Part shown: positions 26,005 through 27,243 of the stretch, one piece after another | How positions within the stretch are numbered: position 1 is the first letter of the stretch | Layout: each line of letters starts with the position of its first letter | Source: Planctopirus ephydatiae | Lineage (GTDB): Bacteria; Planctomycetota; Planctomycetia; Planctomycetales; Planctomycetaceae | Reading direction: 5' to 3' | Assembly: GCF_007752345.1 (NCBI RefSeq) | Contig: NZ_CP036299.1 | Span: forward strand, 4,312,001 to 4,376,000 | Length of the DNA stretch: 64,000 bases | Notes under the pieces: model-generated | The model's input: only the letters and a program-made list of their open reading frames with translations | Databases searched by the model: none | What the model was told of the DNA's origin: nothing | Position numbers and translations under genes: made by a program

Positions 26005-26223
26005 GGGTGGCCCGACCGCCTCGCGGTCGGGTCGCGCAGCGACAAGATGCCACATCCTGCGCATGCCACTGGAAAGAATGATCAACCAAACAGAGTGTCT
26101 TTACATCTTCCGAAAATCACGACAAGCACGATGCTCGACGATGAACCCTGTGTGCAGCAGGACACGCGAATGGCGCGGCATCTTGTGCCTCCGGCACCCG
26201 GCCACAAGTTGGCCGGGCCACCC
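26005..26223. repeat. BIME A: two inverted REPs around a 125-nt core
   Basis: Left REP 26005-26051 (plus orientation) and right REP 26177-26223 (minus), each 47 nt. Each reads GGGTGG, an 8-bp-stem hairpin with 5-nt loop, a second 5-bp-stem hairpin with 3-nt loop, then AAGATGCC. The core is shared with copies at 27022 and 36614. It lies in the space between glcD and the RAYT gene, close to the glcD start. Confidence 0.9.
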
Positions 26224-26252
26224 GATTTTAGTATCGGCGCATCGTATCCACC

Positions 26253-26299
26253 GGGTGGCCCAACCGTCTCGCGGTTGGGTCGCGTAGCGACAAGATGCC
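26253..26299 (+). repeat. Single REP (third copy at the RAYT locus)
   Basis: 47 nt with the same design as the BIME REPs. The stem CCCAACCG/CGGTTGGG keeps pairing through a compensating change relative to CCCGACCG/CGGTCGGG. Core-like sequence continues for a few nucleotides, but no right-hand REP follows. Confidence 0.88.
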
Positions 26300-26457
26300 T
26301 CACCCTGCGTGTACCAATACAGAAAACGTCCAACTCCTCATACAGCCCCTCCAATTCAGCAATCAGTCATGCTAGAAAATTTTCTGATAGCGGTTGATAT
26401 CAACTGCTCGTCATTCTTGATTATTAAACCCCTCCAGTTCCAATTGAGCATGCCTTC

Positions 26458-26976
26458 ATGCCCACGCAAGCGATTTACGACACTGAAAAACACGTTCATT
26501 TCGTGACGTTCTCCTGCTACAAACGGCGTCGCTACTTGAAGACGGAGTTCGCCAAACGAATCGTGATCGGTCATTTGGGGAGTCGATTGAAACGGCAGTC
26601 GGGATTGTGTGTGGGCTATGTCATCATGCCGGATCATGTGCATGCCCTTCTTTGGTTTCCCGAGGCGAACCAGCTGAGCCTGTTCATGAACAAGTGGAAG
26701 GATCAGTCATCCATCGCCCTCAAAAAACTCTTCGAGACGAGGTTCCCCGAATACTGGAAACGAATCTCCGAAGACGACCCGATTTGGCAAACAAGGTACT
26801 ACGACTTCAACGTTTGGTCGCGGCAGAAGATCGAAGAGAAGCTGGACTACATGCATCTCAATCCCGTGCGAGCCGGATTGGTCAGTAAGGCCGTGGAGTG
26901 GCCTTGGAGTTCTGCGAAGTGGTATCTGGGGGGAAAGTCGGTGGGACTGCCGATCCAATGGCCCGAGGGACTGTGA
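26458..26976 (+). CDS. REP-associated tyrosine transposase (RAYT, IS200-like Y1 HUH family)
   Basis: 172 residues. HUH nuclease motif in MPDHVHALLWFP (H-V-H) and the catalytic Tyr in KLDYMHLNPVRAGLV, the hallmark of RAYT proteins; the C-terminal WPWSSAKWYLGG is also typical. RAYTs cut single-stranded REP DNA next to the GTGG-type tetranucleotide and are thought to spread REP/BIME elements. Length matches the family. The gene is flanked by BIME A and a single REP on its left and BIME B on its right, so the locus is a complete 'REPtron'. There is no strong ribosome-binding site, suggesting low expression. Confidence 0.93.
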   Translation: MPTQAIYDTEKHVHFVTFSCYKRRRYLKTEFAKRIVIGHLGSRLKRQSGLCVGYVIMPDHVHALLWFPEANQLSLFMNKWKDQSSIALKKLFETRFPEYWKRISEDDPIWQTRYYDFNVWSRQKIEEKLDYMHLNPVRAGLVSKAVEWPWSSAKWYLGGKSVGLPIQWPEGL

Positions 26977-27021
26977 GCAGAATCGGATAGCATCTAGGAT
27001 AACGTAACCGGGTGGCTCGTC

Positions 27022-27243
27022 GGGTGGCCCGACCGTCTCGCGGTTGGGTCGCGAAGCGACAAGATGCCACATCCTGCGCGTGCCGCTGGAAAGGATGTTG
27101 ATCAACCAGATATTGGGGTTTCATCTCTTTCCACAGTCACGACCAGCACAGGGCTTGACGATGAACCGTGTTTGAAGCAGGTCACCCGGATGGCGCGGCG
27201 TCTTGTGCCTTTGGCACCCGGCCACGAGATGGCCGGGCCACCC
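27022..27243. repeat. BIME B: two inverted REPs around a core
   Basis: Left REP 27022-27068 and right REP 27197-27243, each 47 nt, with the same core as BIME A. A partial duplication of the GGGTGG end lies just left (27010-27015). The right REP stops 8 nt before the uvrA stop codon, so its hairpins would sit right at the uvrA 3' end. Confidence 0.9.

Follow-up and report, generated by a model that had tools for sequence, protein, structure and literature searches.

The window, a 64,000-nucleotide stretch of DNA spanning positions 4312001-4376000 of the complete 5,214,061-bp chromosome of Planctopirus ephydatiae, carries a RAYT (TnpAREP) gene surrounded by hairpin repeats. Judging from sequence comparison, this element very probably belongs to a planctomycete family of RAYT transposons that has an autonomous form elsewhere in the phylum and mobilizes BIMEs and REPs in trans. 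The broader proposition, that Planctomycetota carry living, self-mobile REPtrons in which REPs are the ends of an insertion sequence, and BIMEs and solo REPs are its deletion derivatives, appears likely, albeit with less assurance.

An intact RAYT gene

The predicted RAYT gene with an HUH motif and a catalytic tyrosine is borne out by all comparisons (Table 1). The catalytic motifs are H60 and H62 in PDHVH and Y131 in DYMHLNPVRAGLV (Y-NP type), and the PDHVH and YMHLNP signatures (HUH and Y---NP) are invariant or nearly so across the clade of related RAYTs described below. The protein matches Pfam Y1_Tnp and scores 107.6 bits against the NCBIfam model REP_Tyr_transpos (NF047646, cut-off 80), which relatives from the genomes G313, G044, G001 and G068 also pass. 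Both the closest solved structure by sequence and the best fold match of the structural model (pLDDT 86) are 4er8, in which the Escherichia coli RAYT is in complex with a REP hairpin. Assignment to plain IS200 transposases was considered and rejected, given the score of 31.7 bits against NF033573, below the cut-off of 55, and the Y---NP rather than Y---Q motif. The gene is present in a single copy in its own genome, and a search of plasmids with this RAYT yielded no match.

Table 1. The RAYT gene and the repeats around it (positions in the window)
Feature	Position	Strand	Description
BIME1	26005-26223		MITE-like mini-element, 219 bp, GGGTGG to CCACCC; one base-exact position in G001 and G003
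BIME1 left-type REP	26004-26067	+	79.0 bits; hairpin 1 CCCGACCG/CGGTCGGG, hairpin 2 CGC-GCA-GCG, tail ACAAGATGCC
BIME1 right-type REP	26161-26224	-	82.8 bits; hairpin 1 CCCGGCCA/TGGCCGGG, hairpin 2 GCC-GGA-GGC, tail ACAAGATGCC
Single left-type REP upstream of RAYT	26252-26315	+	78.0 bits; expected left end of a REP-RAYT-REP unit
RAYT / TnpAREP gene	26458-26976	+	172 aa, HUH-Y1 transposase, catalytic residues intact
BIME2	27022-27243		222 bp, two inverted REPs
BIME2 left-type REP	27021-27084	+	78.7 bits
BIME2 right-type REP	27181-27244	-	81.3 bits
BIME3	36610-36816		decayed, ~9.5 kb from RAYT; rearrangement breakpoint relative to G001/G003
BIME3 left REP	36593-36656		decayed, 22 bits vs 77-83 for the other copies
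BIME3 right REP	36753-36816	-	intact

Double-hairpin REPs in the window and across the genome

The two composite BIMEs and the single REP that were reported around the gene are all present, and every intact REP copy in the window begins with GGGTGG, as claimed. The repeat is, however, longer than the 47 nt originally proposed: it is a double hairpin of ~64-75 nt, built of GGGTGG, hairpin 1 (about 8-10 bp), hairpin 2 (3-9 bp, with a loop that is often GNA) and a conserved ACAAGA tail. The further BIME placed at 36614 exists as a repeat, although it retains only one intact REP.

Hairpin 1 shows covariation, with changes on both sides in 8 of 8 pairs among 101 distinct copies, in an alignment partly fitted to the structure; none of 500 shuffles scored as high. 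Hairpin 2 is represented by many different stems around GNA-type loops. The BIME1 strand folds with a z-score of -5.7, none of 200 shuffled sequences being equally stable. The six good REPs of the window have covariance-model E-values of 2e-16 to 3e-15; because the model was partly built from these six copies, the independent evidence comes from the other genomic copies. Such copies, on which the original prediction depended, were recovered by a whole-genome search: at least 30 REPs were found in the 5.2-Mb genome at E<0.01 (150 of 3632 candidates scored, with further weak copies possible), a number below the usual REP abundance of more than 100 per genome. The complete BIME sequence occurs nowhere else in the genome than in the window; elsewhere, most copies are single REPs, and many of these have a longer hairpin 2.

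Several features of this distribution can be mentioned in passing. A longer REP variant of about 86-89 nt (L044-L052) has hairpin 1 replaced by ..CTCGTGCCCAACTCGCC... The REPs are oriented in runs, all + from 547 to 1892 kb and all - from 2042 to 4312 kb; GC skew in twenty 20-kb genome samples did not locate the origin and terminus. Two other repeat families occur near REPs, one with GCATGCTTGC..GCAAGCATGGC and one with CACGACCCTGAAGGCTTTGCGAAAGGGCGTGGTC (flanks of L006, L010, L014 and L015, and of L009, L012, L013 and L014).

Whole REP-RAYT-REP units in other genomes

Full REP-RAYT-REP units of about 720-776 bp are present in multiple copies in three other genomes. G313, from another family of the phylum, contains nine full copies (93-98% identical, most with an open RAYT frame) with ~59-bp inverted ends, along with solo ends and one copy that is rearranged; the RAYT of G313 belongs to the clade of the window protein. 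G044 and G134 contain three full copies each (94-96% and 88-91% identical, respectively), and many of the copies in these two genomes contain stops. G044 additionally harbors an internally deleted copy, truncated copies, paired-end mini-elements of about 155-165 bp and solo REPs. RAYT is the sole gene inside the multicopy units, and none of the units seen includes tnpB. The tips of the units are fixed and, in G044 and G134, the 200-bp flanks of the full copies show no meaningful similarity. Thus, the REPs of these units resemble insertion-sequence terminal inverted repeats, and BIMEs resemble MITEs. The second hairpin is asymmetric, CGC..GCG on the left and GCC..GGC on the right, in the units of G044 and G134 just as in the BIMEs of the window, so the BIMEs can be read as deletion derivatives of the unit.

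Insertion-sequence behavior, in the sense of nearly identical copies that share fixed ends and occupy unrelated sites, is accordingly seen in G313, G044 and G134, and not in the genome of the window, where the unit is not multicopy. In the window, the left-type REP lies 206 bp upstream of RAYT, compared to 106-108 bp for the equivalent REP of the multicopy units. The right REP of BIME2 is the nearest inverted REP downstream and thus a possible right end of a unit spanning 26252-27244, but this end is disturbed by BIME2. Given the single copy and the lack of a clean right end of its own, the main substrates of the window RAYT today are probably its BIMEs and REPs, or else the gene is decaying.

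An alternative is that the RAYT is domesticated as in gamma-proteobacteria, namely a vertically kept single copy that spreads REPs or REPINs while itself immobile, in which case the duplicated units would result from segmental duplication or gene conversion. This is how RAYTs have been described, as single-copy genes that are not mobile (PMC2817692, PMC3116915, PMC8266576, PMC8049555), and the single copy in P. ephydatiae conforms to that description; a further repeat common to one side of two G044 copies would fit segmental duplication. Other members of the clade do not conform: the copies in G313, G044 and G134 end at the same REP tips, and in the latter two genomes the flanks are unrelated on both sides. 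We consider domestication unlikely as an account of the family, and favor the transposon interpretation.

Comparison of the unit copies yielded no consistent target duplication and no convincing split ORF at any copy. A search for the empty site of a G313 insertion in the related genome G203 recovered the left flank alone, and a candidate in-genome empty site at the second repeat beside L276 was not upheld. A separate many-copy repeat of ~34 nt adjoins one element insertion in G313 (query 541-593 of L279:300-2300).

A clade of RAYTs and its own REPs

The association between RAYT and REPs was assessed in a sample of 150 Planctomycetaceae genomes, 55 of which contain REP matches. Protein searches separate the clade of the window RAYT (at least 41% identity) from other RAYTs (below 38%), with 51 clade-positive genomes counted by hand from the match list, fragments included. 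In the phylogenetic tree, an analysis that the original prediction had proposed, the 52 clade proteins are separated from other RAYTs with 99/99 support and are connected to them by long branches; copies from the same genome cluster together. The nearest kin of the window RAYT are found in other genera and not in its own: G001 and G003, members of the same genus, encode a relative that is 54-56% identical and comes from a different part of the clade. The RAYT is therefore not orthologous within the genus, which is another argument against vertical retention of a domesticated gene.

Among the genomes with at least 10 REPs, 17 carry the RAYT clade and 2 do not (Fisher p 1.3e-7, related genomes being counted as independent); the co-occurrence of any REP with the clade has p = 8.5e-11 (uncorrected for phylogeny). 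The two exceptions, G002 (23 REPs) and G005 (31 REPs), are drafts that are 87-88% complete and carry other RAYTs. Repeats in relatives lacking RAYT were to count against the original prediction; in these two genomes they do occur without a clade RAYT, with the qualification that both assemblies are incomplete and encode RAYTs of other groups. Conversely, 14 clade-positive genomes gave no match to the REP model R1, which may reflect the tuning of this model to the REP of the window. A GGGTG hairpin lies within 420 nt of the clade RAYT on one side or more at 37 of 52 loci, and on both sides at 23 of 52; the sequence of hairpin 1 varies among these flanking REPs and the build is constant. No match to R1 was detected at those non-clade RAYT loci that were searched. 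Taken together, these comparisons support a real and clade-specific RAYT-REP pairing. The dispersed copies, the specific flanking and the co-occurrence are what would be expected if this RAYT mobilizes the repeats, which we infer it does.

Rearrangements at the BIMEs

The junction between a glcD-like gene and BIME1 is at the identical base in G001 and G003. In these genomes, BIME1 runs directly into the gene that follows BIME3 in the window, and in G001 the uvrA block is located elsewhere and terminates at its own REP. The RAYT-uvrA block of the window is thus bounded on both sides by breakpoints within BIMEs, which map to 26004-26225 and 36610-36816 (L253, L254, L273). The location of BIMEs at rearrangement breakpoints implies that recombination between copies occurs. 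Within the block, a 2439-aa ORF at 27252-34571 (-) reads as two tandem UvrA proteins.

These breakpoints, together with the abundance of REPs in G002 and G005, would fit a scenario in which the repeats are moved by another transposase or by recombination and the RAYT is a passenger among them. This appears improbable considering that clade-specific REPs flank the gene in many genomes with a matching pattern of co-occurrence, and that RAYT is the only gene within the multicopy units. Still less probable, to the point of being only a marginal candidate, is that REPs owe their retention mainly to a role in the host (as terminators, RNA hairpins, gyrase or IHF sites) and spread incidentally. Most copies do look intergenic, with 19 of 30 REP centres outside any ORF of at least 150 aa by a rough test, and three species retain BIME1 at the same location; such roles would, however, leave unexplained the matching ends of the multicopy units and the association with RAYT. 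They are also compatible with mobility, the two explanations not being mutually exclusive.

A probable RAYT transposon and its relationship to known systems

Under the preferred transposon interpretation, the full element, of about 720-780 bp elsewhere in the phylum, consists of a left REP, RAYT and an inverted right REP, its ends being asymmetric, GGGTGG-tagged double hairpins. The RAYT, as an HUH-Y1 nuclease, most likely recognizes these hairpin ends in single-stranded form and would use Tyr131 to cut beside the GTGG foot, so that the enclosed single strand would be moved without target duplication. The same protein could act in trans on BIMEs, which combine a left and a right end in 150-225 bp and would represent MITEs, and on solo REPs. 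The repeat structures, their dispersal, the clade-specific association and the multicopy units with fixed ends in three genomes are visible in the sequences themselves; the biochemistry, the action in trans and any present activity are inferences.

The closest characterized system is the E. coli TnpAREP REPtron (4er8; PMC8266576), which shares the HUH-Y1 fold, the Y-NP motif, inverted bordering REPs with a GT[AG]G foot, and BIMEs; W94 and Q95 of the E. coli protein correspond to W110 and Q111 of the window RAYT. The foot differs (GTAG in E. coli, GTGG here), and the E. coli residues that contact GTAG, E100, H101 and R104, align with D116, F117 and W120. Furthermore, the E. coli REP is one bulged hairpin and not two hairpins in a row, and is present in ~600 copies compared to ~30 here, whereas multicopy whole units are a property of the window clade. 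TIRYT/TIRtrons (PMC3733652) are similar in that long inverted repeats, some described as double palindromic, enclose a RAYT-like gene and have TIR copies elsewhere in the genome, but, by the published description, their TIR motif is GGGGWSAS instead of GGGTGG. With IS200/IS605 elements (IS608, ISDra2), the units share an HUH-Y1 transposase, hairpin ends, no target duplication and IS-like copy numbers; they differ in having Y---NP instead of Y---Q, no tnpB and perfect-type inverted REP ends, where IS200/IS605 ends have no terminal inverted repeats. In the classification of TnpAY1 (Quentin et al. 2018, PMC6006769), Y---NP is a Class 2 feature, and GTGG is enriched at genes on the margin of subclass 2.2 (arcs a-c); compared by motif table rather than by tree, the window set DHVH / WQ / YMHLNP has no matching row in Table 1 of that work.

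REPINs (Bertels and Rainey 2011, PMC3116915), in which a RAYT mobilizes a pair of inverted REPs in trans, resemble the BIMEs described here, with the difference that the single genome G044 combines units that look autonomous with mini-elements and solo REPs. An autonomous ancestral element whose flanking REPs gave rise to REPINs has been proposed (PMC3116915), and the multicopy units look like this ancestral state put forward in 2011. The original prediction can thus be extended: in other genomes, the repeat-gene-repeat unit of this clade seems to behave as an insertion sequence. Its portrayal of RAYTs as best known from proteobacteria requires amendment in one respect, namely that planctomycete REPs and RAYT genes are already on record, Rhodopirellula baltica having been reported in 2013 to be rich in tyrosine transposase genes and REPs (Di Nocera et al., PMC3733652); the same authors stated that REPtrons do not self-propagate. 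The literature surveyed contains no report of mobile whole REP-RAYT-REP units; ISfinder and the 2017 RAYT grouping paper (doi 10.1093/gbe/evx146) lie outside that survey, and priority is uncertain. The spread of REPs has been an open question, since previously studied RAYTs have the appearance of domesticated genes, being single copy and not seen moving. The coexisting whole units, mini-elements and solo REPs provide a natural series that leads from an insertion sequence to a repeat, and the family offers defined ends for transposition assays.

Other RAYTs of the genus

The genome of P. ephydatiae encodes two further RAYTs, L017 (G000:C1:1371650) and L018 (G000:C1:4989450), whose flanking repeats are different and carry a GTAG tag (GTAGGGTGGGTTAAGGC.. 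and GTAGGGTCCGC..), so that each of the three RAYTs has its own repeat. In G001, a GTAG-type RAYT unit of ~690 bp with 33-bp inverted ends is 97% identical at two loci, with a third copy at 82%. This duplication suggests that self-mobility may hold for two RAYT lineages. In all four copies of the GTAG-type unit compared (L077, L079 and L080 of G001, and L017), the right-end CTAC is followed by 3 nt and then GCT.
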